Below are positions 722-63,560 of a stretch of DNA of 64,000 nt, one piece after another; within the stretch, counting starts at the first letter, position 1, and each line of letters begins with the position of its first letter. The DNA is from Apoderus coryli (lineage: Eukaryota; Arthropoda; Insecta; Coleoptera; Attelabidae): NCBI GenBank assembly GCA_911728435.2, contig OU452201.1, positions 12,958,001 through 13,022,000 on the forward strand, written 5' to 3'. The notes under the pieces were generated by a model. It saw nothing but the letters and a program-made list of their open reading frames with translations, had not been told where the DNA came from and did not search any database. The translations under genes and the position numbers were made by a program.

Positions 722-760
722 GCCACACATGTTTCGGACTACACGTCCATCATCAGTGGC
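722..760 (-). ncRNA. Hammerhead-like ribozyme motif, cleavage base changed to G
   Basis: Read on the minus strand the order is GCCA, CTGATGA, extra T, GGAC-loop-GTCC, GAAA, CATGT, G, TGGC. GCCA and TGGC form a 4-bp stem I, and GGAC/GTCC form helix II with loop GTGTA. The palindromic ACATGT would give a very short stem III or pair between two molecules. The base before TGGC, position 17 of the hammerhead numbering, is G. Established hammerheads need A, C or U there, so this copy is predicted not to self-cleave. Confidence 0.6.
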
Positions 761-1162
761 TTAAGGAACCTTATACAACATTGTTAGATGCGAGGGTCGT
801 ACTTCATACAAATATTAATAGAGAGATTTTTTTACATTGATGTAAACGTTTATACATATCACTTTGTTGGAAAAATTTGGTGATTCTTAAAACAGCCATA
901 CTGTTGTGCGCTCTTACCAGATTGTTTAAGTTGAATTTAATTTCCTTTAAAATGAGAAAAAGAAGAAAACGAAGAACGGAAGCAAGAATAATTGACAAAT
1001 TTTCAACCATTTAACTATATTTTTATTTTATTAATTTAACACTCAATTTTTTCCAACAAAGGGATATGTATAAACGTTTAAATCAATGTAAAAAAATCTC
1101 TCTATTAATATTTGTATGAAGTACGACCCTCCCATCTAACAATATTGTATAAGGTTCCTTAA

Positions 1163-1201
1163 GCCACTGATGATGGACGTGTAGTCCGAAACATGTCTGA
1201 C
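1163..1201 (+). ncRNA. Hammerhead-like ribozyme motif, stem I mismatch
   Basis: GCCA (1163-1166), CTGATGA (1167-1173), an extra T, the GGAC/GTCC hairpin, GAAA (1188-1191), CATGT and C17 (1197). The GUC cleavage triplet is present. The distal stem I strand is TGAC rather than TGGC, so stem I has one mismatch. It is the inverted partner of the motif at 722-760. Confidence 0.6.
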
Positions 1202-1245
1202 AGTTAAAAACAAGGTTTTAACGTATATAGATGGATTACTTCAGA

Positions 1246-2796
1246 AGATTATTTCAGTTTGTTTCAATCAAAAAATAGATTTTAGGAAATGACAAGCAAA
1301 AACACAACAATTAAATAAACTCGAAATTTCAAAAAAAACAAATGGACTTAGAGGGTATTGGAACTAATAATCGCACTTAATGGGTTTTGGAACTGAATTT
1401 AAACCACTCCAATTCATACAAAAATTGGCTTCTTTTGCATGTGTTTTCCTTTTGAGTCAAAATGAAAAATAAATTTTGTACCGGTCTATTCAAGTTATAA
1501 TAAGTTTACCTATATAAAAAAAAACATAATACTTTTAAATTTCGAAATAAAAAAAAATATAGATATTCTTCAGCCTATGCTTGAATTTCTTCAAAATCGT
1601 CAGCATCAGATGTCCATTATTAGCCATATCATTACATATTCTCAAGTACGTCCTTATTTATAATCTATGATTGATAAAGTTTTAACTTTATCATAAAGTT
1701 TTAACTTTATCAATCTTAAATTGTTTTAAGGGATTTCCTATTGCGATTCTTTCACGACTCAAAGATGCTGACGAATTTAAAAAATGAAAGAAACGCACAG
1801 ATCGATTCCTCGCATATTCATTACACAGAGTCGATTCAAAAATTATATTTTTGAAAAAAGGACTTAGGGGGTTTGGGAAATGGACAACTCATATATTGTG
1901 CAATATACTATCTTTTGTTTGGCCCTGTCCATGAGTTTAGATCATGGATTATCCTTGGTCTATTTAAAAGTAAGGTTTTTGTTTATTTTTGAAAGGTAAA
2001 AAAAAATTAAATTAATTTATTAAATATAAAATGTCTCAAATATCTAAACAATTTCAATAATATCATAGAATAAGATAACTGTGGCAATACTAATATCAAC
2101 AAAAAAATAACAATGTAGGTATTAATGCCCAAAGATGTTTACCTGTCATATTTCAATGAACATAAATTTTATACTGCTTACCCTGGGGAAAACCCACAAT
2201 ATAATATCTCATTTACTACAGGTAGTTCATACTATAAATATTAGTACACTTACAACCTGAACCTCGTTTCTTCAATAGTTTATCCCTGGAACTCAAAGTG
2301 TGAATGTTACAAGTGTGAGTTATTGAAGTAAACATCGAAAATTCGCGAGTGTTGGTCTATAGTTTTAAAACGGAACACCTGCAAAATAGAATAAAATTAT
2401 AAGTCAGTGGTGTGTGTAAATTCACTATGTCAGGAGATTTCTGTAAGTATTCACGAAATCAGTAGAATCCTTAAAAGCACTTGATTTTGATTAACTATTT
2501 GATGAAAAGCTAGAAGAAGTTGCTCTTTTTAAAAAAATAATAATTTAAAATAATGAAGCTTGTCAAAGCTGTCTTTAATTAATTAATGTGTAAAATTTAC
2601 CCAAATGCCCGCTATATCTACGCCAATGAACAGTTAATGAAAGCCAAAATAATGCAGATTATTTTAGGGTATCGGTTCTCAAATGCATGTAAAATTTTGT
2701 CAAAATCTGTGAGCTAGTTTTTGAGAAATGAACAAAAAAGTTAATTTGACCACTAAATTTGGACACCCTGTATCTCGATAACGAAGAATTTGCTGA
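1246..2796. other. Intergenic sequence upstream of vnd, no gene seen
   Basis: AT-rich. The block at about 2640-2780 looks like diverged insect repeat DNA and contains ACACCCTGTAT at 2763-2773, the reverse complement of the ACAGGGTG motif also present at 51.5 and 52.0 kb. Two NF-kB/Dorsal-like matches are listed separately. I see no coding signal. Confidence 0.5.
2186..2195 (+). promoter_or_regulatory. Dorsal/NF-kB-like site
   Basis: GGGAAAACCC is a symmetric match to the Rel-family consensus, 7.2 kb upstream of the vnd ATG. A second match, GGGATTTCC, lies at 1731-1739. In Drosophila, vnd is a Dorsal target in the neuroectoderm. Such short matches also arise by chance, and nothing else here marks an enhancer. 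Confidence 0.25.
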
Positions 2797-4131
2797 CATG
2801 GGTTCAATGGCAAAAAATGCTTAAATTACTTTCGGGAATCTCCAGTTTTCGTTTTTTGCAACCATAATAAGCTATTTGGGCAAATAAAACATAGGCTGGT
2901 TTACCAGCAACATGGGTTCATTAAGGGTCGTTCTACGGTGACCAATCTAACCACTTTCCTGCAGGATGTAATTCCGGCTGTCGGTCGAGGTTTGCAAGTC
3001 GACGCAATCTATACTGACTTTTCCAAGGCGTTCGATAAGATTGATCATTCCCTGATTCAACAGAAGATGTGCGACATTGGCTTCGGCAGGAATCTGATAT
3101 CTTTTTTTCAGTCCTATCTGGGAGCAAGGCAACAATTTGTTGAATACAATGGATTCAGTTCAAGTTCATTCACAGCCTCAAGTGGAACTCCGCAGGGCAG
3201 TACGTTGGCTCCTCTTCTCTTTGCAATATTCGTAAACGATATTGGCTCTGGTTTCAATAGCAATTATTTGTTGTTTGCGGATGATTTAAAATTGTATCGC
3301 ACTGTTGTTTGTGAGAACGATTGCGCACAGCTTCAAACAGATCTGTGTCGGCTTTCAGAATGGTGTGATCTAAATAGACTTCCTCTAAGCCTGAACAAAT
3401 GTAAGTCGGTGACGTTTACAAGACGTCAAGATCCGTTTGTGCGAAACTACACCATCGATAATTCAAATTTGGAACGCTGCGCTTTAATCAAAGATCTTGG
3501 TGTATACTTGGATGGTGATTTATCTTTCAACTACCACATTCAGCAAGTTTCTGCTAATGCTTTGCGAATTTTAGGATTTATTTTTAGACAGACCAGAGAA
3601 TTCAACAACATGGACTGCCTGAAAAGTCTCTATTTCGCCTTTGTTGTGTCTATTTTGGAATTCGCTACAATCATTTGGTCGCCCATCTACCGTGTTCATA
3701 TACAGAGATTGGAGAGTATCCAACGTAAGTTTTTAAAATATTTGTCATTTAAAATTGATGGATATTTTCCTCCTCGTGGGTGTGATCACGGTCTGATACT
3801 GGCAAGGTTTGGATTTCGGCCGTTGGCCGAGAGACGCATCTTCGCGTCTCAGATCTTTCTTTTTAAGTTGATCAACAATATGTTGGATTGTCCTCGGTTG
3901 CTTCAGCAGCTATGGTTTCGTGTCCCTAGGGTTCACTCTAGAAGCGCTAGTTTATTTTGGGTGCCACAGATTCGTTCTAATTATGAATCTAAAGCACCGC
4001 TATTGCGGGCTTGTAAGTACAGCAACCGATTAGTTATTAATGAAAACGTTGATTTTTTTAATGTATCGCTTGATTCTTTTAAGAAAAGTTTAGAGACATG
4101 TTTGCGGGCTACTGATTTGTATATGTTTTGA
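2797..4131 (+). CDS. Reverse transcriptase of a non-LTR retrotransposon, partial
   Basis: The frame is open from 2797, after a TGA at 2794, to the TGA at 4129-4131, about 444 codons. From about 2863 the reading is clearly RT: QHGFIKGRST, then motif A FSKAFDKIDHS with the first catalytic Asp, motif B SGTPQGSTLAPLLF, and motif C LLFADDLKLYR with the FADD pair. A thumb/connection region and a C-terminal segment typical of Jockey-type ORF2 follow. I see no RNase H domain and no C-terminal zinc knuckle. The first 20 codons look frameshifted relative to the usual NYRGIS motif, so the 5' edge is decayed. The RT core itself has no stop. A mobile-element gene, not a host gene. Confidence 0.85.
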   Translation, partial: HGFNGKKCLNYFRESPVFVFCNHNKLFGQIKHRLVYQQHGFIKGRSTVTNLTTFLQDVIPAVGRGLQVDAIYTDFSKAFDKIDHSLIQQKMCDIGFGRNLISFFQSYLGARQQFVEYNGFSSSSFTASSGTPQGSTLAPLLFAIFVNDIGSGFNSNYLLFADDLKLYRTVVCENDCAQLQTDLCRLSEWCDLNRLPLSLNKCKSVTFTRRQDPFVRNYTIDNSNLERCALIKDLGVYLDGDLSFNYHIQQVSANALRILGFIFRQTREFNNMDCLKSLYFAFVVSILEFATIIWSPIYRVHIQRLESIQRKFLKYLSFKIDGYFPPRGCDHGLILARFGFRPLAERRIFASQIFLFKLINNMLDCPRLLQQLWFRVPRVHSRSASLFWVPQIRSNYESKAPLLRACKYSNRLVINENVDFFNVSLDSFKKSLETCLRATDLYMF

Positions 4132-5640: not shown

Positions 5641-6216
5641 AGAGCAATACTTTATGGTCTTCCATTACTATTACATCGTCGATAGTACCGTGTTTTCTAT
5701 CCTCTTCCATAGTCGTTTTCTTTCTTGGCTTCTTTCGTTTTATTTCTTAGCTTCACGTTGTTTTCTTGTTTCTCAGCTGCACGTTGTTTTTTCTCTTCTT
5801 TGGTTGGGTATTTTGTAATTACCGCATTAGTTCTTCTTTCTTAGCTTCAGGACGATAAAAATCTCGAGAACTGCCACTATAGTCGTGAAACCTCGGAATA
5901 TTTTATGTATACGACGAGAATATAGAAGAGCTAATGAAGAAAATGAACATTCGTAATTAGGAAAAACATTCCCTTCAACTAGCTTTAACCCAGGCATTTT
6001 GAACATACTTACCTACTCTCTGCCGTACCAACGTATGCTGACTTATCCTTGTTTAAAACTTTCTTATTATTTGTTCTTGAAATAAAAGTCAACCTCCACG
6101 AAACAAATTTAATAGATTTCTCTAAAAATCATCCAACCATGTTTCGGAGCACCAGGCTCCATCATCAGTGGTTAGTAAAATTACAAAAAGCTATTTCATC
6201 ATTATTTTTATAACTT
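5641..6216. other. Intergenic sequence with a Penelope-like terminal module
   Basis: About 400 bp show nothing recognisable. At 6079-6103 the sequence GAAATAAAAGTCAACCTCCAC is followed by GAAACAAATTTAATAG. It matches the terminal modules at 11661, 18490 and, inverted, 18660-18680, and it precedes the hammerhead-like motif at 6135-6173. Confidence 0.5.
6135..6173 (-). ncRNA. Hammerhead-like motif, cleavage region eroded
   Basis: On the minus strand: AACCA, CTGATGA, extra T, GGAGC-loop-GCTCC (5 bp), GAAAC, then ATGGTT. AACC and GGTT can form stem I. The usual ACATGT followed by H17 is reduced to ACAT, so the cleavage site is lost. The helix II bases differ from those at 722-760, yet the pairing is kept, which is covariation. 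Confidence 0.5.
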
Positions 6217-7330: not shown

Positions 7331-7364
7331 CAACGTTTCGGCAATGCAGAATTGCCTTCTTCAG
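7331..7364 (-). ncRNA. Hammerhead-like hairpin, GAAACGTTG subtype
   Basis: On the minus strand: CTGAAGA, extra A, GGCAAT-TCTGC-ATTGCC (6-bp helix), GAAACGTTG. It has the same layout as the GAAACATGT copies, but with A as the extra base and CGTTG after GAAA. An (ACA)n microsatellite (7315-7334) abuts it on the plus strand. No ACATGT-H cleavage region, so probably not self-cleaving as it stands. Confidence 0.4.
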
Positions 7365-8930: not shown

Positions 8931-8934
8931 GCAT

Positions 8935-12600: not shown

Positions 12601-15600
12601 AGAGCTACTTGATTTGCGAAATAAAACAATTGTCAAATAATGAAAACATTATAATATAGCCTTTTTTAATAATACAAGGTGGTAAAGTTAAAGCTCCATA
12701 TTTCTAGCAACATCGCTGGACTTAATTAAAAAAAACCGTTATTTACAAAAAAGCTTTAACACCGTGTGTTTTGGAAACAATACATTTCTGGACGTATGGT
12801 ATGGGAACTTTGAAAATACTGTAATGTATCCTTCAGATTCTTTATTATTTAATTATTAATATTATATTATAATATTAATATTATTTAATTTAAATAGATA
12901 ACAAATGTTAATACCTAAATCTATTTTAAATATACTACAAATACGTTTTCAAAAGAATGATTTTTTTAATATATCAAATGAAATTGAGTCTAAAATTCAT
13001 CTTATAAGTATTACCTAACCTAAAACATCTAAATTATTAATTTTCAGGTTATTAGATACCATGAAGATGACTTCAAGTATGGCAAATCAGAGACCTCCAG
13101 CTGGATTCGCTATTAGTGATATTTTAGAATTGAACAGTAATGCAGCTCCTCAACATTTGGAGCCACTCTCAGTGGAAAATCCTATGTACACTACCACCGA
13201 TCTTAGTTATATTCCGAGGCATTGGGCCCAAATGCAAGATCATGGTAAGTGCAGATATATGTAATATATTATTATACTTGTAATAATTTATTATATATCG
13301 TAAATATTTATCATTTGTTAAAATTTATTGACAATTTGAAAGTTGCATTTAAGTGCATGAATATTGTTAAAATCCCAATATTTCAAGTCGCACATACAAA
13401 AATTGTTTTAGCTTCTACAAAACATAAACAATAAACTTCAAATGATGAAAAATTGTTTAATTGAAATGGAATTTAAAGGAAAAAATTAATTGTCTATATA
13501 ATATTACTTTACTAACTCTTATACCACTAAACAGTTGAAGAAAAATTTTATATCTAATCATACCTAAGGAGCGATTTTATCCAATTCTAATATTTATGAT
13601 AAAATGCTTACACCTTATTATGGAATATTTTTGAGAGTTAAGCAGTTGATGAATTATTATTTACATTGTAGTTATTAACATTTTTCCTATAAAACAATTT
13701 TAACTTTTAACGTAGTTTTACCTTTCCTATCCAATATTCAGAATGTCATGTTGAACAAACATAAAACTTGTCTTTCAAAAATAAACAAGAAAAATGATTA
13801 ACAAACTATTATAATACAAAAATGATATTTTATCATGGAATATGTATTTATATTATAAGAAATTTATCATACATTTTTGGCGGAAGGCATTCTCGTGTTT
13901 GAGGGATGTTTGTATGACATGTACACGCAAGGAGATCCAAATTTTGTTTTTTGCTTCGTATAAATTGAAATATATGGTTTAAAAATAAAATATATATTAA
14001 TAGAATAAATTTTTGCAGTCACGAAAATATTTTATTGTAATATAATATACCGGAGCTACTATCATAAAATATTTATTTTATTATTTTTTGGTTTAAAACC
14101 TTTGGGCACCTAATTAGTATCTACACTCGACTATTAAGGATGAGTTTTTCCCACAATTACTTTGTTAAATAATTCTTATGGCCAAATAATATTTGAAGAA
14201 GAAGAAGAAGTGTATAGATAGGACACAAAATACATCTAACTCCGCACAAAATATTGCAACTATGCTCAAATAGGAGCATACTAGCCATATATGTTTCGGA
14301 TACAATGCCCCATCATCAGTATCACAAATTAATATTTTGAATAGATGTCCTGTAGATATAAGAAATTCTTGAGTTACAATACAATCAATTACATTTTTTC
14401 ACAATGATTTATTGTTATTTATTTCAACGAATAAAAATTAATTATATATTTTAATCCTTTTTTCGTTTAACCTTAAGTGTTTCTTGCTTGAATTCAAATA
14501 TGTTTTATTGAGTATAAAAAAATACAACTGAATATTATATAATAATAATAATAATAATAGTCTTTATTGATTGAGCAGTGTGTACAAACTTAAGATGATA
14601 CCTACATACAAGGAAAGATCTTCTGCACTCAGATTTAAAATATCACAATGAACTTGTTGTTGTATCTAAAAAGGCACTCATTTTAAATAAAGATGACATG
14701 GCATTTTCGTTCTTATGAGATATTTCAAATAGTTTTTTAAGAATGAATTTGTACGGTAAATAAACAAAACAAACTCAATGAGACTTGAATGTACTTAATA
14801 TATGCATTTGGTAATGTAAAATATTAACTATGTAGGATTTGTTATTATTTATGTCGAACAAAAGTTATGAAAAGTTCGGTGATAATATAACGAAGAGTGT
14901 TATTTGTGGCTATGGTCAAACAAAATAGTCATCCAATCAAACAATTACATAAACATACGACAGAAGCGAAGGCTTCTTCTAAACGAGGATTTTGAAGTGG
15001 ATATAATGACATTATCTCCCCAATATTTTATCACTCACGTTTTTGTACTGACATTGGAGATAAGAAACACAATAATTATTATAGTTAAAAATTTTGATAA
15101 AATTTTAAATTTTGATATGAACCAAAATTAAAAGTTTCATCAATTTAGTTTATCTTCTAGGTATTAATACGATATTCCTTCAACTGCTTTGCTGAAACAT
15201 AAATTAAACATTGCCATTTGTAATGTAATTTAAAAAGTTTAATAGCATTTTTTCGTATACAGTTGCACCTCCTCTATACAATTCTTATCACATGCAGCTG
15301 TCAATCTTGATTCTCGATGATATTCAACTTCACAATCCAGAGAGAGGCAGCTGGTCCCATTACCTGCTTCGACTTCATATTATTATGGGGCGTGAACTAT
15401 TTTCTTTATCAATACACTTTTTCTGTATACACCTATAGAAGCCAACCCTTGTTTTGTGGTTGGGAAACCAAAAAGCCTTAAAAGGAACCCCTCTTCTCTC
15501 TCATACCTATTGTATATACTATACCATACCTACCCTATATTAGGGGTGTCATAATGTATCTTTGAGCGTTAAATAATTACCGTTGCCTTGATTCGTAATT

Positions 15601-18600
15601 TAGTAGTACAGGAACGGACTGGGAGCATGTGATTTTAAAGGGTTTTATCCGTATGAACCGTTAAACTAAAACTTGTATCTGACTTAGTATATGAGCACGT
15701 AAGAAATGTGATGTAATTAATTAAAAAACAGTTTTACTTTGCCAAAACATTTTTCATGCTCTACCTTTCATTTTAATCTGCTCAGGGAAAATTAAAATTG
15801 GACTTAAAGAGAGGCCCACATAGTTGTGAAATTCTGCCGGGAATATTTAGTAGAATTTGTATGTGGCCAACTCATATCAAAATACTGCTAATATTCTCGT
15901 TCTTAATTCAGAATTCCACAGCAATTCATTTAAGTCAATATTTTAAAAATATTCACGGTTATGTTTACATAATTTTTTAATAGTTTTTTTATTGTTATGA
16001 ACCATTACTAGAACAGGTATTTGACTTACCAGAGAAATTATTATTATTATTTTTAAATATCAATGATTCTTATTTAAACAAATTATTATATGTCAATTTG
16101 AGTGTACTTTTCCTTTGTTTTAAAACAACTGTTTCTTACAAACTATTTTACTTATCTGCACGATAATTATTATCAAACTGCTGGTAATATTTGAAATCAC
16201 ATATCCACATACGGTTTGCGTTTTAACTTTGAGACTGATATATCAAAAATAGGAATCTCCTAAATGTTGTACTTTAGACCTCAACCCGGTTATCTTTATA
16301 GAATTGACCGTCAAAGAACTAACTTCATATGTTACTAGTAATACCTATTATATACTACTGCGGGAGTTTCTAATTTGTTTCTTGAGAAACATTATTTCTA
16401 ACAGACCTGGGCAGTACTTAAGTACAGCATTGTACTTAAGTACATGTACTTATAAGTACATTTTGTTTTGTGTACTTAAGTACCTGTACTTGTAATTATT
16501 TTGATGTACTTGAAATGTACTTAAAATGTACCTGAAGAATATCCGTATACGCTATATTCTATTACTGTTGTCGTGTTAAGAATACAAGTATGATTGATGC
16601 TTGTGCTAGTGAGGAACATGACCGTTTCTCCACTGCTGAGGATCCAGAATACGTTCCTCCTAAGAGGAAAAGACAGATAAAAGAATGTCGCAATGTTGCT
16701 TCTACAAGTTCTACAGCCAGTGACACTGGAGAGCAATTTTCAAATATGGCAATAATTTTAGATGGAAAGTTTTTTAAAATAACTCAAATAGACGACAATT
16801 AAACGATCAGTTTCTATAAGAACAAATTTTCTAAAACATTTAAAAAGGGGTCACACGAGTGCGTACAGTGACTATTTATTATATAACCAAAATAAAAAGC
16901 TAAAGAAAATGTCAAATATGAATATTCAACTGGAACAAGATGATAAAATAAAAAGATGCTAAGTGAGCATACAATTTCTCGTAGAAAAAAGTACTACCGG
17001 AGCAGGTGCAGTTTTACATAAAGACTTACTTGCAGTCTGCTGTCGACAAACACATATTTGAGTGCCATAGAATATACAATAGCTACATTGCAATATTTTG
17101 ACTTTTTCTCTCTAGCCTCTACAATTCTACACACTCTACGGACCTTATGTAGTAATGTACTTGTGATGTACTTAGAATTTATCTTTCATAAGTACTTATG
17201 TACTTAAAATAATAAGTACTTCTGAATCGGTACTCTAAGTACATTTAGAATGTACTTGTACTTGAATATTTTAAGTACAATTGTGCTGTACTTGGCCCAG
17301 GTCTGTTTCTAAATAGTTCATTAAGAAACATCAACTTTCAACAACAATATAGACATACGTAAATACATGTTGGATGAATGTGGCAAATTATCTCTAATTT
17401 ATTAAATATATTAATTGAATAATCTTTAATCCAACCCTGACAACACACTTTTATGTAACTTACATTAGGCAAGTTTTATTTTATATAGGGGTTGTAATTT
17501 CGCACGTATCGATGTCACCGTATTTAATTTTTACAATGTAGTTGTCGTGTCCCTCCTTTTTATTAAGCTTGTCTGTCTCTCTCACTTATTGTCACCCTGA
17601 CAATCAATTAGACCCCTACCCCCTTGTGTATAAAAAGCTGCAGAGATTGATCGCTGTGTGAATAATTTTAAATGAATGTTTGGTTGTGACTGTTTTCTAG
17701 AGATTTTGTTCAAATTTTGTGTTAAATAGGTAATATTGTTATATTAAGTACTCAGTCAAAAAATGGTCTTTAGGCTGCTAATAATATAATATACCTAATA
17801 TTGTCTTGATAGTACCTACCACCAAAGATACAACAACATTTTTTCCTGACAACAAACTTTTTTGTAATTTCAGTAGTTATCTATTTTCTGTAAGTTTATT
17901 ATTTAATTATGCTGGCACAAATAAATAATCTCTTTTATAAAAAAAGTGAAGTTGAGCCGCCATTTTGACCTAAAGATGCAATAGAAACAAATTAAGATAT
18001 ATAGTCAAAATTTTGCCGTATTCCTTGAGAGGGATGGCTATTTTTCCGTGGTCGACTCATTCTTGATATATGTGTATTATTTTACTTTTGTGGGTTTTTG
18101 AAATTAGGAATGTTGTTGAGTAATAATTTCAATTCTCAGTAGGTACTAGTAATATCTTGGTTCATTTCGTAATTGAGAATTCGACTTCCAAGATTTCAGT
18201 CAATTATAAAAAATGTTGTGGCCTTATATAAACGATCCGAGATATGCATAATAATATACACGTAGAAAAGGATCTGATAAATACTATTCAAACATTTCAG
18301 GTTTTATCATTGACACAAATAGGAGTAAAGCACATTTTTGTATCAAATATATGTTTATATTGACACAAATATAAGTTATTTTACACAAATAACAGGTTGT
18401 TTACATTTTGAGAAGAATGGGAAAATATATCAGTTTTACGTGTATAAAAATATATTTATCCATTAATAAATAATTTAGAATATATTCTTGAAATAGAAGT
18501 CTACCTCCACACAATAAATAAAAACATGTAATAATAATAAGATATACCTAGCTTTTCGTAAGAATTTTTTGATATCCACTGTTGATGGTGCTGCGAAACA

Positions 18601-21600
18601 TGTTTGGTAATTATCGACATATGTAATTTTATTGAAGATATCTATTAAAATTTATTGTGTGGAGGTAGACTTTTATTTCAAGAATATATAATTATTCTAC
18701 TCCACTTCGACATGGACTACTTCTTTAGAATGAATAATTTAGAATTTTAGTTTAGAAAAAAAAAACTAAATGTTAGTTTTTCTAAATCAAGCGCATTTTT
18801 GTCAACCCCTATAACCCTTGATATATTAACATATTATATGACCTGATATTTTGTTTGAAATGACCCCGTATCCCTTGTTTTTTTGGATTCTTTAATTTTT
18901 TTATTTAAAATAGTCCTTTCTCTGAGAAATAATTTGAGCCTAGTGAAAATGCGTCACACCTTGTTACGAGCTATAACCCTTGATATATTAACATATTTTG
19001 TTTGAAACGACCCCCGTATCCCCTGTTTTTTTGAATTCTTTATTTTTTTTTTGTAATAGTCCTATCTTTGAGACATAATCTGAGCCTGGTAAGAATGCTT
19101 CACGCCTTATAAATAAATAAATACGGGGAGTTATATAGCTAAACTATAGAAATTAAGATGAAAAACAACTATCAAATTGATAAAACGTTTTAATAAAGTT
19201 ATTTGCTAAACAGAAAATGTTTACAGTATTGGTATATCTACTTAATTCACGATATCAAGATTTTTAAGTGTATAACAACTAAAATTGGTAAATTGTCAAC
19301 AGTTTTAAGTGGCGTCTTTTAGTACAATAAAATAACCCTCTCTGGCATTCATAAGAAAATTTAGCACTTGTATTTTATTTAGTTTTTCGCATATCAACTT
19401 ACTCTTATCAGGCAATTTAATGAACATCGTGGTCTAAAATGAAGAATGTCATTATAGAGATGCTATTTTTTCCTGAAACAAAAATGCATCGGATTTATTT
19501 GTTTGTTATAGGTATCCAAATAAATCACCAACACCATTTATCAACGCATCGACAACCTCCTCAATTAAGTCCGGACAGTACGAGTCCTCCTATTTCGGAA
19601 CATTCTAGCGTAGAACCTGGTACAACTTTAGGTGAAGCTTCACTACCACCTTTGACTTTACCTCAATCCGCTATTCACGGTAATGGATCCATCAGCGAGA
19701 ATGAGGTTGATGATGATCCGGTAAGTTATGAACTAATTGAATTATAAAAAAAATAAGAAAAACATTTTTATAGCCTGTGTCTATTTGATATTTGTTCTTA
19801 ATTCAGGAGGATCTTAAGGATGACTCCCAACTTGACCACAACGAAAACCAAGGTCAAGGCCACAAAAAACGTAAGCGACGCGTATTGTTTTCAAAGCAAC
19901 AAACGTTTGAACTAGAGCGACGTTTCAGACAGCAGCGTTATCTTTCTGCACCTGAACGAGAACATTTAGCTAGCCTAATACGATTAACGCCGACACAAGT
20001 CAAGATATGGTTCCAAAATCACAGGTAAATTTCTAAATAATTGGTTTAAAGAGGGTTATAAATGAATTATTATTATTTTTATTGTTATTGTATCATAATA
20101 ATATATATTATGATTGCACTTCAGGAAGCTTTTCAAAGTACTCAACTCTCTAATCCATTTTTGTAGGTATATTTATTTTATTTACAACTCACGTTTTATT
20201 GAGCATGTTATATAAGAGTTTAGTATACGTAGTAATGTTATTATTTTATTCTGTCGAAAATATGCTGCTTTATGATGGAATATACAGTGTGTGGCAATGC
20301 CTATCTCAAAGTTTTCCACATGATTACATATACACTTTTTTAAAAGCTTTTAAGCACATATAGTGAAAAAGCACTATTATAGGTTCTCGTACTTTTAGAA
20401 TTTGACTGATCTTACACATTAATATTTTTGATTCTTTCAATTTTTAACTTTATCATGAATATAGGAATCTATTTATAGAATTGCAAATAATATAGTTTTC
20501 TACAAAAGAAAGAAACAAGAAGATATGAATTTTTTTATATTTAAAAATTAAACTATCAAACTAAATAACTTAATTATGTGTTCTTTATTGCGTCCAAAAA
20601 AGTGAGATTAATAATTTATTTTACAATACTAGGAACTAACAGAGATACTTTATTCTAATTTATTTATGACTCATTAACTTTTTGCATAGAATAAAATTAA
20701 AAGGAAAGTTTTATGACTTCGCCAGAACACAATTAAAAGAGATTTTAATTCTGAGTGTGCTAAGTTAGTGCAATTTTCGAATTAAAATAGGAGTTTTGGT
20801 GATGACTATAGGATATTGAAATTACCACCTAGATACTTATTTTAATTTCGACACTGATGTTAGCTTCTTCATAGGATAATTATTATTATAACTAAATTCA
20901 ACTCCTTGGATTATACAGCTTTATAATGTATTATATGATCTGTCTGCACTGTCATTGCTCGAAAAACAATCAATAGAAATTTTTTTTGGGTAGTGTTCTC
21001 ACTTCGTTTCAAAAATTACTAAATAATTTCTGATTACCATTATATATAACATTCAGTGAAGTAGCTTTTCAACCAGCAAATAAAGCTCACCTAGCAAAAT
21101 AATCAACTTAATTAAGAAGATTGAGCTGCTAGCTAGATGAAATATGAATCATACTATAAAGATAGTATTTATATCTGGTATAATATGGACACACTGTGTA
21201 TAGATAAAACCTATTAATCATGGAATAATATTTTTAAAGCCGATAAGTATTATAAAATATGATACCTACTCGTACAGGCACTTACTGGTTCTGTTGGTTG
21301 TGGGATTATTATTTCATAAACTGATAAATAAATTATTGTTTATACAGATACCTAAAGATTTTTTATCACTAACTGCATTTTCTTAATTAATCGATGGTGA
21401 AAGTTTAAATTTGTTTAGGTTAAAATATAAAACTATTTTATATAAGACATATATTATGGTAATTTGAGACTCCAAAGATCTCGGAGTCATGGGCTTCTCA
21501 CACAAATTGTAATACATCGAATACTGAGTCTACTATACTCATTTTTTCTATTAATATACGTCACTAATCTGTCATTATTTCCACACATTTCTCTCGATCA

Positions 21601-24727: not shown

Positions 24728-26129
24728 AAACAACCAGCTTATAGTCTAGACATGGTTCCATGTGTTGGGTCCATTGAAGGAGTCATTAAGAGGGCAACCG
24801 GTTTTCTTCCTATCCGATTGACTAAACGTCTTTTTAGTGAAGAGAATTTCGAATTAAATTTGATTTCCAAAGGGTTTATTAGTGCGTAGTAGTATTGTGT
24901 GCGGATTAAAATCCTTATAACCGAAAGTAGAACTCACTGACAACCAATTTATTCAATCATCAACCACTTCAAGGACATTCTTACATAATATGCTTCTAGA
25001 ACAACCTATGAAGATGTTTAGATAGTAATAAGATATCATATGTGGTAAATCCATAATGGTCCACCAGCATATTTCAGTGTTATGGTTTGCAATTTCGACT
25101 AATTTCCCCAACCAATTTTTTTATTCCCAAACTCTTTTGTTTCATAATTTTGCTGGATCCAGCTACATTACTACCTATTTCAAAAAATAAAATAGTTACA
25201 CAATTGATTGCAAATTTTAATTTGATTGTGCTTTGAGTGGATGTCAAAAAAGCAAGCAAAGTTGGCCAATTGAAAAAGTGACTCCATCCAACTTTATTTC
25301 TTTGAAATTAATTTTCATGCCATTAGTTGCAGCAATAAGTGAAGGAACACAAATTGTACCTATATAAACACGCGATGTCGTCAGGGTGTCTGCGGTACTT
25401 TGTGATTCAAAGGAAGCTAAAATAAATGATTAGCATAGTAGAGTCTGAAACAAAACATAAAAAGCTCAGAAAGCACAAAACTTCTAAAGTATGTGTGTTA
25501 TGAAAATCAACCTTTGATATGCTCTGGATGCATCCCACTAAATGTCTGTGAATTTGATGGGATACTCATAATTTGTATTGAAATCTGGTACGATTTTGAT
25601 ATGGCTAACCATTCCTATATAAACATCTGTTAAAGTGTTCTTTCTATGTTCAAAAAATAATTAAAACAAATCGATTAAACAATAAGTTCACAATTATGCA
25701 TTTCTTATACCTTTGCATTTGGGGTCTGATCAAACAGCCTGAAGTCAACTAGGTATTTTAAAATTTATAAAAGAGAGAGATTTTAAAGATTGGCTTAAGA
25801 TCCATTAGTTGTGTTAACTTTTGTACTATAAATAAAATATCGTATCGTATCGTATCGAAAACCCTACCTTAAATTTTTTCATGTCGTACCTTGCAAAACG
25901 TCAGCTTGTCAAATGGTCCGAACAAGTTCGAATCGGAGATATAGGGAGTGTTACAAGATGCAATCTTAACGCCAATATTATTCCTAATCCACATTTCAAA
26001 CATAGAAAAATATGTAAAAGTTATGTTTTCAAAAAATTTTTAATGACTGACCTCAAGTTTTTTTACAAAGTGTATTGTATACATGTTTGAATCCATTTTA
26101 TAACTTAGACGGTGAGATTAATTATTAAT
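24728..26129. other. Intergenic sequence with a possible non-LTR tail
   Basis: Mostly unassigned. At 25827-25857 TATAAATAAAATATCG is followed by three TATCG units. A polyadenylation-like hexamer with a short tandem tail is how many non-LTR elements end, but no coding part is visible upstream. A 69-codon frame at 25881-26090 has no support. Confidence 0.4.
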
Positions 26130-26220
26130 GCCACTGAAGATGGAACAGTAAGTTCCGAAACATGATTGGCTAATTCGAACATCTATATAATGATATTTTG
26201 TGGAGTAGACGCTTTTGATT
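26130..26220 (+). ncRNA. Hammerhead-like motif with terminal module
   Basis: GCCA (26130-26133), CTGAAGA (26134-26140), T, GGAAC-AGTAA-GTTCC (5 bp), GAAA (26157-26160), CATGAT, TGGC (26167-26170). Stem I GCCA/TGGC is perfect, and helix II covaries with the other copies. U16.1 is replaced by A, so the GUH triplet is lost. At 26200-26220 TTTTGTGGAGTAGACGCTTT repeats the family's terminal module, placing the motif near an element end. Confidence 0.55.
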
Positions 26221-33120: not shown

Positions 33121-33131
33121 TGCCTGAAAAA

Positions 33132-38177: not shown

Positions 38178-38180
38178 AAA

Positions 38181-44090: not shown

Positions 44091-45743
44091 AGTAGAATAG
44101 AGGTTCGACTGTATTTTCTAGTATCCGTAACCCTATTTTAGTCGCTACTGCTCACTAGAAATTTAGCCACCAAAGTATAATATATTTACACGAAAAACAT
44201 GCAACTAAAGTGTCGGTATATAAATTTGTTGACAAAACCAGATATTAGTTAACAGAATCTACACCACACTTCAATGAGTTGTAGGTATTTTAGTCCTCAT
44301 AAACGTAAAGTATTTCAGTTAATATTTATAACACTTCATTTGAGAGTTTTATGTGATTGTCCTCTTCAAAGTTAATCCTTTCCTAATTACTACTGTGTCA
44401 ATATCACTTTTATTTCATTAATACTAATACTACTATATCTGGCTATAATTAATATATTACCATAACTTAAAGTGATTTTTTTTATCAACGTTATAGAGTA
44501 GATACATTTTGAAAATATTATTTCATTCAGTGCCACTTAGCATATTAGCTGTCTGTACTTAATAATTCCACTGATATTGCAAATGTTCAAAATTTTGTTC
44601 TGTCACTTAATTAAAATATTGAAAACTACCCAGCGTAGAAAAATTGATTTTACATTTAAGAAAAAATTTAACGATGCCCATCCTTAAATTTAAAAAAATA
44701 AATAAAAAAGATTGTATATTTATATTTCAAATAGCCCCTCATATCATAAGTTACACTTGGCTGGTTCAAATCCCTATAATCCAGAGAGGCAAAATTTAAA
44801 AAATATTTTTAGTACAATGCAATAAAAAGCATATAGGAACGAGACGGATCACAACACCACGAAATGTATTTTTTTTAGAAAAATAAATACCCCTAAAATA
44901 GTAACTTGTCCAATTTTTACAATCACTTTCTAACTTTGAATTAAAACTGTTTACTCATACTGCAACTAATATTATGGAACTGTTGGATATGGATGTCATC
45001 TGTCTTTTCCAAGTTGAGACACTCTAGGGAGAGACCAAAAAGAATTCAGCTCTGACATGACAGATCGCTTTCAGTTACTCTGAAAACTTTACGTGAACGC
45101 GGTTAAACTTCAAGTCGCTCTGAAGAAGCTGATCGGCTGACCAGCGAAACGTTAGCTGGACGCGGGATTGATACAGAAGTATTGTTTCTATAAGTTTAGT
45201 TGCCTGTGGAAGTTTTCTGTCTAAAATATCCTGATATAATTTTAAGAGTTTGCATAGGTACTCAACAACATAAATATCGGCAGAAAACTCCGAAATTACA
45301 CCGGCTATTGAAATTGCTCAGCTTTCAGTAAAGCACAACTTCACTATTTCTAAAAAACCTCTGTTCAAACCAAAAGTGTATTTGATGGGGAATATTATAA
45401 TATTGGACACATAGTATACATATGTAACTATCGCATTTGAACATAAGTTACGAAAAAAAAAGCTACTGATATAACATTTTTGGAAAACATTTAGAACATA
45501 ATGGAGATGATATAGTTTGATAAATAACAGTAGAAAAAAGTGGTTATCGTTTATAACATGTTTTGTTTAGTATTATCTTTGTTTAAATAATATTTTTATC
45601 AATGTTACTATAATTTATATTTACGCGTGGCAATATATTGATGGTTATTGAAAATGATTTTTATTAGATATCTCTACATTAAATAATGATATTATACCGA
45701 AAGTCTTTTATACATACTAATAATTACTAATAATATAATAATA
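44091..45743. other. Intergenic with one hammerhead-like hairpin
   Basis: No coding signal. The hairpin at 45120-45155 is listed separately. The rest is AT-rich, with no repeat ends recognised. Confidence 0.5.
45120..45155 (+). ncRNA. Hammerhead-like hairpin, GAAACGTT subtype
   Basis: CTGAAGA (45120-45126), extra A, GCTG...CAGC (4-bp helix II with a 10-nt loop), GAAA (45146-45149), CGTTAGCTGG. Same plan as 7331-7364. There is no ACATGT-H cleavage segment, so activity is unlikely. Confidence 0.4.
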
Positions 45744-48930: not shown

Positions 48931-49072
48931 CAATGAAAACCTTCCAGTCAATACCTCGTATTTATTTATACATTTTAACATGTCTGCTGATGCTTGTATA
49001 AGGCGAAACATGTCATAAAGGTTAAAATTGATAAATGAATACGAAGTCTTGACGGGAAGTTTTAGGTATTAA
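48931..49072. mobile_element. Fold-back element with hammerhead-like centre
   Basis: Imperfect inverted arms of about 48 bp (about 48931-48980 and 49024-49072) include TCGTATTTATTTAT and ATAAATGAATACGA. Between them, plus strand: CTGATGC (48987-48993), a hairpin, GAAA (49005-49008), CATGTC. A9 of the core is C, so catalysis should be lost, while the ACATGTC segment is kept. Confidence 0.5.
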
Positions 49073-49549: not shown

Positions 49550-49610
49550 ATTTGACGTACATTGACAAATAAATGTAGTGGACTTGTGGACAAAAATTCT
49601 TAAAAATTAT

Positions 49611-49647
49611 ACATGTTTCGGGACTCTAGATCCCATCATGAGTGGAT
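49611..49647 (-). ncRNA. Hammerhead-like motif, core mutated
   Basis: On the minus strand: CCA, CTCATGA (49642-49636), extra T, GGGAT-CTAGA-GTCCC (5 bp with one U-G), GAAACATGT. G5 of the core is C, a change expected to abolish cleavage. Helix II again keeps its pairing with a different sequence. Confidence 0.5.
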
Positions 49648-49719
49648 TAATTAATGTATTCAAATGTTTTTTTTATTATTATAATGGACATTGTGTTTTA
49701 AATTAAATAATTGAGAATA

Positions 49720-52794: not shown

Positions 52795-53333
52795 TTCATA
52801 CCAGATGTAAGAAATCCTAACCTCAAAATAAAAATAAATACCTTCCTCTTGTCCCTTTATTTTAACACCAACATAACTGTCTAGACGTTATAATAACCAA
52901 CACGACGCTATTGACACAATTCCAGACTTGCGCAATTTGTCGAACAACAACTCTTCTTCCCATACATGGCTGTGGCTGGTTTGACTGATATCACTAACTT
53001 CAAACAATTGAATGATTGACAGTACTTGACCTTCCCTCTCATTTCTATTTGTTGTGTGTTCATAATAACACGTTTAGAAATAAAAATTAATAATTCATCC
53101 ATGATTTATAAAAAGAAATCAAACAATATGTACAATGTAACTGATCGGTTTCCTTCAGAAACCCTCAGACTAACTAATTAAGATCGCTCATAAAATGTAG
53201 TTTGATTTTCGGTTAGAAAAATTTTTATATTTTTTATGTTTTTTCTTTCCACTAAGGTAAGATTATAGCTACAACATATTGTGTAATATTGATACATTCA
53301 AATAATTTTTCCCTTTATAGTTGTTATAATAGT
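52795..53333 (+). other. Probable 3' region of the Penelope-like remnant
   Basis: Non-coding sequence between the endonuclease remnant and the hammerhead-like motif at 53334. The 64-codon minus frame at 52908-53102 has no support. I infer it belongs to the same element. Confidence 0.4.
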
Positions 53334-53377
53334 TTCAACTGATGATGACCCTTACTAGGGCCGAAACATGTATTGAA
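53334..53377 (+). ncRNA. Hammerhead-like ribozyme motif next to a Penelope-like remnant
   Basis: TTCAA (53334-53338), CTGATGA (53339-53345), extra T, GACCC-TTACTA-GGGCC (G-C, A-C mismatch, three C-G), GAAA (53363-53366), CATGT, A17 (53372), TTGAA (53373-53377). Stem I is 5 bp and perfect, the core bases are intact and GUA is an allowed cleavage triplet. At 53415-53439 GTGGATGCGACAGC and ATTTTATTTC repeat the family's terminal module. With 57285 and 57518, one of the best-preserved copies. Confidence 0.65.
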
Positions 53378-54359
53378 TGACTGGTTCGTTGGAGAAACCT
53401 GTTAATAAACAATTTAGTGGATGCGACAGCATTTTATTTCCTAACTTCCATCAGATGTTAGAAGCGGATTTAACGAACTCAAGCAGTTTGGCGCCAGTGG
53501 ATGTTTTTTGTAATAGAGCGATTAGTCTATACTCCGATCAACACGGAAGAGAGGAACTCATTGACGTCATCGAGCTGTGAAGCTTTAGAAAAACAAAGCA
53601 ACAACCGTAATAAATTGATTCACTTTTAAATAATCATTAATAAGAAGTAACCTATTACCATGCTAGCGCTGTGCGCTGGTTGGAACCCGTTCAGTGATTT
53701 TCTGAAATTCTTCACTAAGGTCATTTAACTAATGCAAGTTGCTATTATCTCTTACTAAAAATGGAAAATAATAACCAGGACAACAAACTACTGTAATCTT
53801 CAAATGGAAATGCGATAATAAAAGTATTATAACATTTCTCTATAAAATTTTTAGTGGTCTAACAGGCGTATAAAAACGACATCATAATCGAAACCCTTTT
53901 AAGTATACAAATCATAACCCTCCTTCCTGTTCCGTCAATTAGCCGGGTGGAAAGAAGAATTTTTAGGAGTGGGACGGCGGCGGCGTCCTCCTGACGTTGC
54001 TGCTCTTTATTTGGACGTCGGCTCGAATTTCCTGCTTCCTGTCGGGCGGGACGTCGGAACAAGACTTTACACTCTGATGATATTCACGATTTAAACCCTC
54101 AGTATATGGTAGAGTTTTATACAAGGAAATAAATAAATAAAATAGACAGACGTTGTTTACATCAGGTATGATTAATTAATTTAGGTTGTCTATTGATTTC
54201 TTTTTGAAATTTAATTTAGTCGTGACATACTCTATGACCCATCATTAGTATAAATATGAGGTTTTGTCATATTCAGTTCAATTTTGAACTATCCTCGATC
54301 AAGCAACTCAATCGGGAAGAAAAGAAAAGTCAAGAAGAAAATAGTTCAAACTGTTCAAA
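53378..54359. other. Intergenic with a GC-rich patch
   Basis: The 67-codon frame at 53377-53580 begins inside the hammerhead-like stem I and runs through the terminal module, so I do not take it as a gene. A GC-rich patch at about 53940-54060 contains GGGACGGCGGCGGCGTCC, partly self-complementary, and a 67-codon minus frame rich in Arg and Gln with no domain. Confidence 0.4.
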
Positions 54360-57215: not shown

Positions 57216-57284
57216 ATTATTTGAATAAAACGACGTCTACTCTACAAAATGATCTTTATATATACGTTGAAATTCTTATTAGTT

Positions 57285-57323
57285 GCCAGACATGTTTCGG
57301 ACTACACGTCCATCATCAGTGGC
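57285..57323 (-). ncRNA. Hammerhead-like ribozyme motif, best-preserved copy
   Basis: On the minus strand: GCCA, CTGATGA, extra T, GGAC-GTGTA-GTCC, GAAA, CATGT, C17, TGGC. Stem I GCCA/TGGC is perfect, all conserved core bases are present, and the GUC cleavage triplet is intact. ACATGT is a palindrome, so stem III is either a minimal hairpin or forms between two RNAs, as in dimeric hammerheads with short stem III. The only departure from consensus is the unpaired T before helix II. Confidence 0.68.
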
Positions 57324-57517
57324 TAAGGAACCTTGATCTACAAAGTCAAATAATTTAAATCCATTTTATTTTTATTTTTCATTTTATTAATTTAACACTA
57401 ACTTTCCAAAAAGTGATATTGTATAAACGTTCAAAACAAAAACCAATATAAAATCTCTATGTTAATTTCATATGAAGTGTAACCCTCACATTTAACTATA
57501 TTATACAAGGTTCCTTA

Positions 57518-57556
57518 GCCACTGATGATGGACGTGTAGTCCGAAATATGTCTGGC
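57518..57556 (+). ncRNA. Hammerhead-like ribozyme motif, inverted partner
   Basis: GCCA (57518-57521), CTGATGA (57522-57528), T, GGAC (57530-57533), GTGTA, GTCC (57539-57542), GAAA (57543-57546), TATGT, C17 (57552), TGGC (57553-57556). It differs from its inverted partner by C to T in ACATGT, which weakens the stem III palindrome. Transcription through the whole element would place both motifs in one long fold-back RNA, but only this one in sense on the plus strand. Confidence 0.65.
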
Positions 57557-57660
57557 AACTAATAAAAATTTCAACGTATATATAAAGATCATTTTGTGGA
57601 GTAGACGTCGTTTTATTCAAATAATAACATTCACTCCTCGATAAATGGATTACTTCAGAA

Positions 57661-59150: not shown

Positions 59151-59154
59151 CTTC

Positions 59155-60560: not shown

Positions 60561-61203
60561 TCGTTTAAACAGACTTATCTTGCTTAATCAGAAGCTTAAT
60601 AATGGCGCGGTGTTTGGTTTTTGTACATATCTTTACTTTTCTTCCCGACTGAGTTGCTTGATCCCCGATAGGTCAAATATTAATGGCCTGAGTAAGAAAA
60701 AACTTGTTATTTATAGTAACTTTGTCATAGAACATATCATGCCTAAAAATATCCGCACAACTAATTATTAGAAAGCAAGACTGCTTTAGATTTGATATAT
60801 TAGATGGAAGTCATTCTTAAATATAGGGAAAACTGAACTTCGATGATGAAAGGTATATTGAGAATTTGGCTAAAACAGCATACTTCCATCTGATACTCAC
60901 CTCGTCGGGTCGATCCAGGACTTATCAGTGGTGCTGAGTAGGTGTGTGAGACACTCCCAAATTTCTACAGCGCTTATGTTTGTAAAGCAACTTGTAAATG
61001 AACGAAGAATACGGTGAAATGTAGTTGTCAAGTTGAACAAGCAATATGCCCGGTTAAATAAAGTTGCTTTATTTAGAACCATTTCTTATAACTTTATGTT
61101 ATTTAATATTAAGAGCCCAATTTAATTTAAACAAAATTCTTTTTTAGTTAAAACCAATAATGTTGTTTGATATTAAGAAAGGAAATTTAAAATTTATATA
61201 TAT
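60561..61203. other. Intergenic, nothing assigned
   Basis: Short frames at 60580-60771 (plus) and 60897-61082 (minus) show no domain. No repeat ends. Confidence 0.45.
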
Positions 61204-61525
61204 TGTGATGAATATGAAAATGTACACCTGTTGGCAACACCGCTACGCGTCTAGTTAAACTCGAGCTGGTTGTATCATGGACGGTCATAGAATAGAATGG
61301 AAGAGACTGGACAGGTCCAGAACGTTCGCTCGTGATGTGGAGAGCGACATATGTATATAAAGACAGAGATCTATTGAGAACAGTGTTCTGACATATAAAT
61401 AAATAAGTCATATTAGTGCATTAATGATATTAGTTTGTTTAAGTGTTTAGTTAATAAGTGTAAATAAATTAGTTTGAATTAAAGTTGGTTATTATTTCAC
61501 ACTACGAACTGCGAAAAACGTTACA
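61204..61525 (+). mobile_element. Probable solo LTR (322 bp)
   Basis: Begins TGTGATGAAT and ends GTTACA, flanked by ATAT (61200-61203 and 61526-61529), the 4-bp duplication size of Ty3/gypsy. Inside, TATATAA at 61354-61360 and AATAAA at 61398-61403 are in promoter-then-polyadenylation order, as in an LTR read on plus. No PBS, polypurine tract or coding region follows. The ATAT flanks lie in AT-rich DNA and so are weak evidence alone. Confidence 0.6.
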
Positions 61526-63460
61526 ATATATTATATATACGTAGCGATCAAAACAAACCAACTACTCCCCTGGCTAGTACGATAACTGACATTGAATTAG
61601 ATAAATCAACGTTAATTTAGTTAAATAAATTTGGAAATAACTATTAGACACATTTGCTATATTTCTACAAACACGTTTAGTATTGTGTTTTCGATTGAGC
61701 AAGTTAAATGTTTTATTTTTCTTCACTCAACCTACTCACAGAAACCTAAATATCACTATAAGCTCTAATCGTAATCCTGTACAAAAATGTTCACACATGG
61801 CTGTCGATCTTTCCTTTGTCACAGGCATTAAATAAATACATAGGCACCTAATATTATAGTGATTTCCAAATATTTTTGGACCAAATCCTGTTTGTTACAA
61901 ATACAGTATATTATCTTCTATATGTTCCCTTTTTTTAAATTATAAAAGGTAGTAGTAAAAAGGGAGCTTTGATTGTTTATTTTATCATGCCACAAATGCT
62001 TAAGGATTACGTATAGGTATATCTGTTTCACTACAAATCAAAATTATAGAATAACATATTTTTCGAAAAGTAACATGATTTCTGAAATTTCACTAAATCT
62101 TTTTTTTTTTTATTTTTTGAGTCTGATTACTGGATTGAATTTTTCGTTTCTTTTTTTTTTTTAATATCATAAAATCAAAATGGAACGTAGTGCTCCAAAT
62201 TAGAGCCTTTAACTTTGACCAAAGACACTTTCCGATTGATTAACAAACATCAACTCGAAAACATCGTGTAAATATTACATTTTTATTTTCGAAATATTTT
62301 GATTTGAGATAAAACGGCAAATTTAGTGTGATATATTAATGTGTATCTGCACTTTTTTAAGACAATACTGTGATTAAATGGAAAAAAATAAGCAATAGAT
62401 AAAATTGTGACATGATATAATCAACCTTGTTTTAATTATAAACAAATCGTTTTATATTTTTGCTTCTACTTAAAAAGAAAAATTCCACATAGAAACAATA
62501 TTTTCAATCATGATAAGGTCATCGGATTTATATCAGGACTGTGTTAGGGCTCGCATAAAATTCGACAAGGCAGGTGACGGACTTCAATAGTGTCAGTTAC
62601 CAATTTTTACTTTCGATACCAAAATATTTTAGTTTAGCTACAAGAGTTTATGGTTAACTTAGTCCTTAGACATATCTATCAGTGTTAGAACAACATCTTT
62701 CTTTTGATCCAATTGTCTCAAAATATTATCAGATACATTTAAAAGTGCTGATGTTGTGCTGTATCCACTTCGAAAGTCAGATTGATTTTCTGGAAATAAT
62801 TTATTATTTGAAAACTATTGAATTTTTTTTTTATTTCAAATTTTTTAAGAAAGTAGTTAGTTTGTTAGGTTAGTTTATTGGAACTAATAAAATTATAATA
62901 ATAATTATTATTAAAATTCTGTTTCGTTACGCAGGACATATATTTTAGATCATATTTTATCTTCCCGGGAAAGTTTTTTATATATTAGTTTATCATTTTA
63001 CTGCAAAATCCAAAAAAAAAAATCTAGCGCTTTAAAATAATTGAAGAACATCAGCTCACAAACATGTTTAATAAACAGGAACAGATAATAAGGAATAACC
63101 TAATTATGTAGATATACCTAGTCTTGACAGAACCAATTGTTCTATTTCATATTATCTACGACTAATTTCAGTCCATGACAATCAGCCAAGAATCACTTCC
63201 TTTCTAAATGTTCACATAATAAAACTTTGAAGTTTCCAAAACAAAATTAACCAAAATTGAGCCCCAGAAACTTTTACTTTTAAAAGTTACTGTTGTTATT
63301 GGACCGCAAGTTCACAGTTATTGAATTTGATAACCAATCTAGGTACATTTTTTAATGTTTGTTGTTTTTTTTTCTTTTAATTTAATTATTGATACATTAA
63401 TAAAGTTGTTTTTGGCATTTCGAAGAATATTTTTTATGCGAACCTTTGAGGAAGTGACTG
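61526..63460. other. Intergenic, nothing assigned
   Basis: AT-rich with T-runs near 62101-62165 and an (ATA)n-like stretch near 62888-62915. Short frames only. Confidence 0.5.
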
Positions 63461-63465
63461 TTGGC

Positions 63466-63560
63466 TGATGATTGATGATGGTCATAGACCGAAACTATTA
63501 TCAGTTTGTAAGTAATAGAAAAAAAAAAGTAGTGTAAAGACGTGGAGTTTCATTGAATTC
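63466..63560 (+). ncRNA. Hammerhead-like motif, diverged
   Basis: TTGATGA (63472-63478, C3 changed to T), extra T, GGTC-ATA-GACC (4 bp perfect), GAAA (63491-63494), then no ACATGT. Downstream AGACGTGGAGTTTCATTGAA (63538-63557) is a variant of the family's terminal module. Helix II is kept although the catalytic core is not. Confidence 0.4.

Follow-up and report, generated by a model that had tools for sequence, protein, structure and literature searches.

A dispersed family of hammerhead motifs and its link to Penelope-like elements in a 64,000-nucleotide stretch of the Apoderus coryli genome

A 64,000-nucleotide stretch of the Apoderus coryli genome (assembly GCA_911728435.2, contig OU452201.1, positions 12,958,001 to 13,022,000; hereafter the window, C10:12958001-13022000 in the 428 Mb assembly to which all genome-wide counts refer) was analyzed for short dispersed motifs that an earlier note had read as hammerhead ribozymes. 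The window motifs are in all likelihood hammerheads of the minimal type I kind carried by Penelope-like elements (PLEs). Where elements can be traced, these are short or decayed and have the motif at their ends, and cleavage is predicted to occur in dimers paired through a self-complementary ACAUGU or ACGU.

Motif sites, abundance and covarying stems

The window was scanned with the pattern CTGANGA N{8,30} GAAAC, and matches were judged against 100 dinucleotide shuffles; 13 matches were found where 0.40 were expected (shuffle maximum 2). The earlier note had proposed a single family with CTGANGA, a hairpin and GAAAC at thirteen or more sites, plus a weaker copy at 48987. A covariance model trained on 60 copies from contig C1 (the window lies on C10) recovered 11 of these 14 sites at E values of 5e-14 to 0.0017, the weaker copy among them, and two others (7335- and 45120+; sites are given with their strand) fit a second lineage, so that the hammerhead kind was upheld and the single family was replaced by two lineages, with ACAUGU and ACGU respectively. 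Site 63466 dropped out (E 2.5); the one base described after its core fits the hairpin only in the register TTGATGA at 63472, where stem I would be ATGA/TCAG with 3/4 pairs. The letters given in the note were present at the ten sites that are also scan matches (731-, 1167+, 6141-, 7335-, 14293-, 26134+, 45120+, 53339+, 57294- and 63465+), and differed at 18579+ (CTGTTGA), 49615- (CTCATGA) and 57522+ (GAAAT). None of the remaining three scan matches (1768+, 49744-, 54764+) was detected by the covariance model at E <= 10. The sites are as follows.

718..764, minus strand: hammerhead, lineage 1 (site 731-); model E 6.6e-13; triplet GUG
1159..1205, plus strand: hammerhead, lineage 1 (site 1167+); E 2.2e-13; intact core, stem I with one mismatch
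6128..6176, minus strand: hammerhead, lineage 1 (site 6141-); E 7.3e-11; U16.1 lost (GGU)
7335..7364, minus strand: hammerhead, lineage 2; CTGAAGA A ... GAAACGTT; stem I weak (2/4 pairs); missed by the lineage-1 model
14280..14327, minus strand: hammerhead, lineage 1 (site 14293-); E 9.7e-7; core unchanged, pairing weakened in both stems and in helix III
18571..18612, plus strand: hammerhead, lineage 1 (site 18579+); E 9.6e-7; A6 changed, helix II lost
26126..26174, plus strand: hammerhead, lineage 1 (site 26134+); E 3.5e-10; U16.1 lost (GAU)
45120..45150, plus strand: hammerhead, lineage 2; core, ACGU palindrome and UH kept, stem I 3/4 pairs; missed by the lineage-1 model
48976..49022, plus strand: weak hammerhead-like copy; E 0.0017; A9 changed; within a palindromic repeat (48937-49063)
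49602..49650, minus strand: hammerhead, lineage 1 (site 49615-); E 6.4e-9; G5 changed, stem I lost
53331..53380, plus strand: hammerhead, lineage 1 (site 53339+); E 6e-14; core intact, stem I 4/4, GUA, helix II with one mismatch
57281..57327, minus strand: hammerhead, lineage 1 (site 57294-); E 5.1e-14; every checked letter and stem intact, GUC
57514..57560, plus strand: hammerhead, lineage 1 (site 57522+); E 2.1e-11; intact save C15.2 to U
63464..63505, plus strand: last site of the earlier note (63466); E 2.5; unsupported as a family member

By a script check, the CUGANGA core was kept at 10 of the 14 sites and U16.1 with H17 (the UH before the cleavage site) at 11, both together at seven (1167+, 7335-, 14293-, 45120+, 53339+, 57294- and 57522+); GAA was present at all 14, which is not independent, as the script searched for GAA. 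A stem I pairing GCCA with TGGC around a GUH triplet, previously described for many copies, was found at four of the 14 sites, and the NUH rule is broken at 731- (GUG), 6141- (GGU) and 26134+ (GAU). Given its GUG triplet, the copy at 718..764 is likely inactive. The best-preserved copies in the window are 57294- and 53339+.

Across the genome, an exact lineage-1 pattern matched 8322 times (6 for the reversed pattern), another search pattern 7636 times (0 reversed) and the lineage-2 pattern (CTGANGA A ... GAAACGTH) 3863 times (2 reversed), and the exact 26-mer of the commonest motif occurs 463 times. These thousands of matching copies indicate that the shape of the motif is maintained by selection. 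With seven lineage-1 matches (including the unsupported 63465) and two lineage-2 matches, against 1.2 and 0.6 per window at the genome average, the window is enriched in the motif, in line with the density that had been remarked upon.

For covariation in lineage 1, copies were taken from C1 at places chosen for differing helix II letters and from previously fetched inverted pairs; 110 fit a strict pattern, 68 differ in their stems, and one row per helix II string gave 60 rows, all from C1. Rows were chosen by core letters (the pattern also set the UH) and not by pairing, and poor-stem rows were retained. Stems I and II were paired in 82.8% of cells (59.2% shuffled), and the covariation score was 0.627, which 0 of 500 shuffles reached (0.202 shuffled); slid versions of the alignment gave 0.196 or less. 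The claim that helix II varies and yet stays paired was thus borne out, and an absence of covariation above background, which the note had named as grounds for abandoning the idea, was not what the 60 genome copies showed. Stem I had both-sided changes in all five pairs (75.7% of cells paired) and reached at least 4 bp in 33 of the 68 copies, against 15.8 with shuffled partners (maximum 24). The closing pair of stem II (G10.1-C11.1) is G-C in 59 of 60 rows, its C being fixed by the pattern, and pairs 2-5 covary. In lineage 2, where 77 distinct helix II strings were drawn from 100 listed genome matches, helix II pairs 2-4 were paired in 84.0% of cells (49.4% shuffled, maximum 58.0%).

Hammerhead-like motifs were also seen in sequences filed under other sources. 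A bacterial metagenome-assembled contig (L001, WRIF01000209.1), from an isolate whose name we take to be a termite-gut one, carries a PLE-type hammerhead at 54-104 (model E 1e-8), and its first part may be animal DNA within a chimeric contig. A locus filed as viral (L006, IMGVR_UViG_3300034084_000080) has a hammerhead-like CTGATGATGGGCGAAAATAAGCCCGAAACGTTTAA at 2950-3100 on the minus strand (E 9e-6), and two IMG/VR loci scored at chance (E 4.2 and 3.7). Two other motif searches of IMG/VR yielded no locus. A further IMG/VR pattern search gave at least 120 loci, 15 of which were scored with the model (18 sources, including L001-L003). Of two motif searches of genome contigs, one was without a match and the other gave a single locus (L001).

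The helix III palindrome and predicted dimer cleavage

The helix III position holds the self-complementary ACAUGU (lineage 1) or ACGU (lineage 2) and not the hairpin of the canonical form; the palindromes are too short for a stable hairpin, which matches the minimal PLE variant. ACAUGU was present in 76 of 100 listed lineage-1 matches (counted by eye). Variants of the form ACNNGT with both inner bases changed number 767 genome-wide (2 for the reversed pattern), and 100 listed double variants reduce to 49 distinct strings, of which 38 are strict palindromes (16.3 expected were the nine allowed doublets equal), 5 are wobble-paired and 6 unpaired. Variants that preserve the palindrome include ACUAGU and ACCGGU. 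Pairing between two copies would require the inner bases to stay self-complementary, and a tiny hairpin would leave its loop bases free. Retention of the palindrome therefore fits cleavage as dimers, as support and not as proof, the strings being related by descent, and the motif would likely cut itself when two copies pair. Nearest-neighbour energy folding of monomers or dimers cannot represent a hammerhead dimer and was not used.

Inverted elements, tails and the Penelope-like protein

Three elements in the window, and a protein remnant, connect the motif to PLEs.

647..1250, plus strand: E1, short PLE-derived element, inverted ends each with a hammerhead; tail ATGGATTACTTCAGAA (1231-1246) at the right end
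18482..18732, plus strand: E3, PLE-derived element with one degenerate hammerhead; tail ATGGACTACTTCTTTAGAATG (18712-18732); short inverted left end without a hammerhead
52570-52788, plus strand: C-terminal remnant of a PLE protein; 73 aa aligned at 55% identity with the L139 frame that bears GIY-YIG (tblastn E 2e-18)
57219..57660, plus strand: E2, short PLE-derived element, inverted ends each with a hammerhead; right-end tail ends ATGGATTACTTCAGAA

Target duplications flank E1 (ATTTCAGTTT at 637-646 and 1251-1260), E2 (ATCCATTTTTATT at 57206-57218 and 57667-57679) and E3 (AATAATTTAGAAT at 18469-18481 and 18733-18745, read by eye). The promoter-like part of the right arm of E1 is deleted; reading the TATA and GTGGAGTAGACG stretch as a promoter is only a guess. 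Elsewhere in the genome, one end of a typical element stops after TTTTATTCAAAT and the other extends 38 nt further to ...ATGGATTACTTCAGAA; E1 and E2 belong to this type. Across 19 elements (17 fetched pairs with E1 and E2, none dropped), duplications of 9-15 nt were found in 18, the sole exception being L145, a duplicated element of which the outer left end was not taken. Mean duplication length was 11.6 over all 19 against 6.0 for mismatched partners, of which 18/342 reached 9. Hammerheads in such pairs mostly face outward: among the first 100 places listed for the 26-mer, 18 of 19 neighbours within 2.5 kb run minus then plus (one plus then minus), and in the lineage-2 list the same order was seen in 9 of 13 (two minus-minus, one plus-plus, one plus-minus).

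The source of the tails was found in relatives with long open frames. In these the protein starts MDYFF, a hammerhead lies about 580 nt past the frame, and there follow the first frame codons again, ATGGACTACTTT and the element end; the second frame start lies about 100 nt from the hammerhead start, and the tail stops some 15-20 nt inside that frame. This codon-repeat tail was seen in L215, L219 and, at a longer distance of about 890 nt, L233; L236 and L240 are without it. Since the frame start recurs after the hammerhead, the tails of E1, E2 and E3 correspond to the PLE coding start, and ATGGACTACTTCTTTAGAATG of E3 equals the frame start MDYFFRM of L233.

Protein domains were found between the paired motifs as well: GIY-YIG (PF01541) in L139 and L132 (24.0 and 23.0 bits, cut-off 22.6) and RVT_1 (PF00078) in L163, which has hammerheads on both sides. 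The C-terminal half of L163 looks GIY-YIG-like by eye, without a Pfam match at E <= 0.01, and L163 had no match among solved structures at E <= 0.01. Querying a database with the L139 frame brought no match at E <= 0.001 (54 candidates). Open frames of up to 887 aa occur among 106 scored PLE protein matches, some of which lie within arrays of minus copies followed by plus copies (e.g. on C32 and C15), and of the 20 loci L212-L231, some of them overlapping, 19 keep the strict motif downstream of their PLE frame. The remnant at 52570-52788, itself without a Pfam GIY-YIG match, lies about 550 nt upstream of hammerhead 53339. With fetched relatives at PLE ends and this remnant, the tie to Penelope-like terminal repeats that had been suggested from general knowledge held in this genome.

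These structures suggest how the elements may spread. The insertions end a few codons into the PLE frame and lie between copies of a target duplication, the arrangement expected from target-primed reverse transcription; this anatomy is observed directly, and the process is taken from published work. Read-through RNA of tandem units would contain several hammerheads of the same sense, and pairing between two of these could cut the RNA down to unit length. The RNA copied into the genome would probably be uncut at its last hammerhead, because each tail sits downstream of an uncut hammerhead; this agrees with an anole PLE (below).

Some neighbouring features were noted. At 7769-7780 the window holds ATGGACTACTTCTTTAATAG, which is PLE-tail-like and edges a two-copy repeat (7766-8340 / 45719-46327), with no hammerhead in the preceding 130 nt. 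Within the 3' portion of the L139 PLE (about 2430-2510), an inverted repeat containing CTGAGGAAGGC...GCCGAAACGTTG places a lineage-2-like motif inside a lineage-1 element. At L204 (C1:4100243-4108071), two hammerheads that face outward bound a near-palindrome of 7.4 kb; each of its strands has a frame of 293 aa, which matched nothing in Pfam, and it may be captured non-PLE sequence. The window also holds a homeodomain exon, a Gypsy-type element, a reverse transcriptase (RT) fragment and a mariner-type transposase fragment. The homeodomain exon is at 19789-20025; a downstream frame (21652-21969), without a Pfam match, looks like part of the same gene, presumably of NK2 type. Direct repeats of 2.7 kb (30398-33109 and 38178-40889, 99.93% identical) enclose a Gypsy-type gag (36318-37691, minus) and pol (33151-36345, minus), so 30398-40889 looks like a young long terminal repeat (LTR) element with long LTRs; arrays of an approximately 140 nt repeat with ACTATTTACGAACGCC flank it on both sides (29136-30458 and 40885-42145).

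Known systems, competing explanations and significance

The motif class is already in print, and the window family belongs to this known class. In the excerpts of the literature drawn on here, thousands of minimal type I hammerheads without helix III are described from many animal genomes, some in PLE pseudo-LTRs (PMC7761336), and minimal variants are named in PLEs and Terminons, one coral being credited with more than 6000 motifs of type I, the minimal and canonical forms taken together (PMC7229834). The window family shares with the minimal PLE hammerheads the core, short stems I and II, the lack of a helix III hairpin, the pseudo-LTR location, thousands of dispersed copies and possible dimer cleavage (PMC7761336); no categorical difference was found from those of Cervera and de la Pena 2014 and Lunse et al. 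2017, which are represented by secondary description. The genome here combines two lineages (ACAUGU, ACGU) with palindrome-preserving changes. Neither palindrome switching nor an ACGU lineage appears in the PLE-hammerhead passages considered, the primary descriptions lying outside them, and no novelty is claimed.

The anole PLE PAc, in the excerpts of PMC11167929, is alike in its hammerhead pseudo-LTR, tandem copies and GIY-YIG protein, and likewise in its tail, which corresponds to the template stretch separating two RT start sites. In PAc, stem II of the hammerhead is where the frame begins, and RT often initiates 111-118 bp inside that frame; in the family studied here the frame begins about 100 nt from the hammerhead start and the tail stops some 15-20 nt past the frame start. 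Penelope of Adineta vaga, from excerpts of PMC3846280, also has inverted pseudo-LTRs, mostly head-to-head, with an optional tail at one end, target duplications of 8-10 bp, TATATATA in the pseudo-LTR and captured foreign sequence; its copy number is very low, in contrast to the thousands of motif copies found here. The words hammerhead, ribozyme and HHR are absent from the main text of that paper.

A number of observations weigh against reading the window motifs as PLE hammerheads. A tail, duplication or PLE frame was traced for few of the single sites in the window, most being tied to PLEs by the motif alone. At E <= 10 the Rfam scan found a hammerhead neither in the window nor in six motif-bearing loci, so that the search with hammerhead models proposed in the earlier note succeeded with our C1-trained model and came out empty with the Rfam families; as Rfam was empty even on loci with motif copies, its result is weak evidence. 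In the 60-row alignment the conserved letters CTGATGA...CGAAACATGTH are there by construction through the selection pattern, both-sided change in 9 of 10 pairs is barely above chance (8.1 shuffled), and shared descent among the rows means that the shuffle counts overstate independence. In the anole PLE, cleavage occurred only with protein, and the hammerhead was dispensable for in vitro insertion, catalytic mutants also inserting (PMC11167929). Further, a core or UH letter is lost at seven of the 14 window sites, and the strict motif fails in all ten loci L232-L241: L236 and L240 have GCUGU before GAAAC, L233 has GAAU, and L233 and L236 carry open frames of at least 863 aa despite these altered motifs. 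Such broken window sites, and the changed motifs in some PLE copies with long open frames, would also suit a genome in which cleavage has been lost and the ancestral sequence remains. That degree of decay is unlikely, given the 463 exact copies of the 26-mer and the strict motif retained downstream of the PLE frame in nearly all of L212-L231.

Metazoan retrozymes, which are small and non-autonomous, carry canonical hammerheads and form circular RNAs of about 170-400 nt, would account for short non-coding elements with type I hammerheads such as E1 and E2, and insects are among the reported sources of retrozyme-like repeats (PMC7229834, in part). We consider this origin very improbable: in the window the copies are scattered or stand as inverted pairs, none of them inside a tandem array found there, the helix III hairpin is absent, and the tails and open frames are those of PLEs. 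The window showed no canonical hammerheads in directly repeated tandem units of 150-450 bp; no genome-wide array search was made. Inverted ends and flanking target duplications are equally what an inverted-repeat or Helitron-like DNA transposon would present if its terminal hairpins acted as DNA and only resembled hammerheads. It is hardly credible that unpaired CUGANGA and GAA would then be conserved beside covarying stems, that one element end would carry the first PLE frame codons, or that RT and GIY-YIG would lie inside longer copies.

A different role for the palindrome is conceivable: ACAUGU or ACGU might be retained mainly because it brings two PLE RNAs together, much as a dimer signal does in retroviruses, and to a lesser extent for cleavage. 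Both target strands would then be primed on paired templates to give head-to-head elements with a hammerhead at each end, cleavage acting as a release switch. It is suggested by the outward-facing pairs together with the anole protein, which is reported to cut and extend both strands (PMC11167929, in part), and we regard it as a long shot. In a partner-arm test of whether both arms of an element derive from one template, made on 16 elements (L140, L145 and E1 left out), the partner was strictly nearest for 13 of 32 arms and another element for 12, with 7 ties, and a star phylogeny could give the same. Among listed matches, 10 of 11 minus-then-plus neighbours within 1.3 kb share a helix II family by eye (exception 2739163/2740135); the palindrome is common to many families, and therefore a shared helix II family gives joined RNAs no special support.

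Read as minimal PLE hammerheads, the motifs of this one genome add up to about 12,000 pattern matches over both lineages (8322 and 3863), with many variants of helices II and III and with relatives that keep open frames. Such variety is strong comparative evidence for the keeping of both stems and of a self-complementary helix III, and the genome offers matched intact and broken copies with which cleavage and insertion can be compared.

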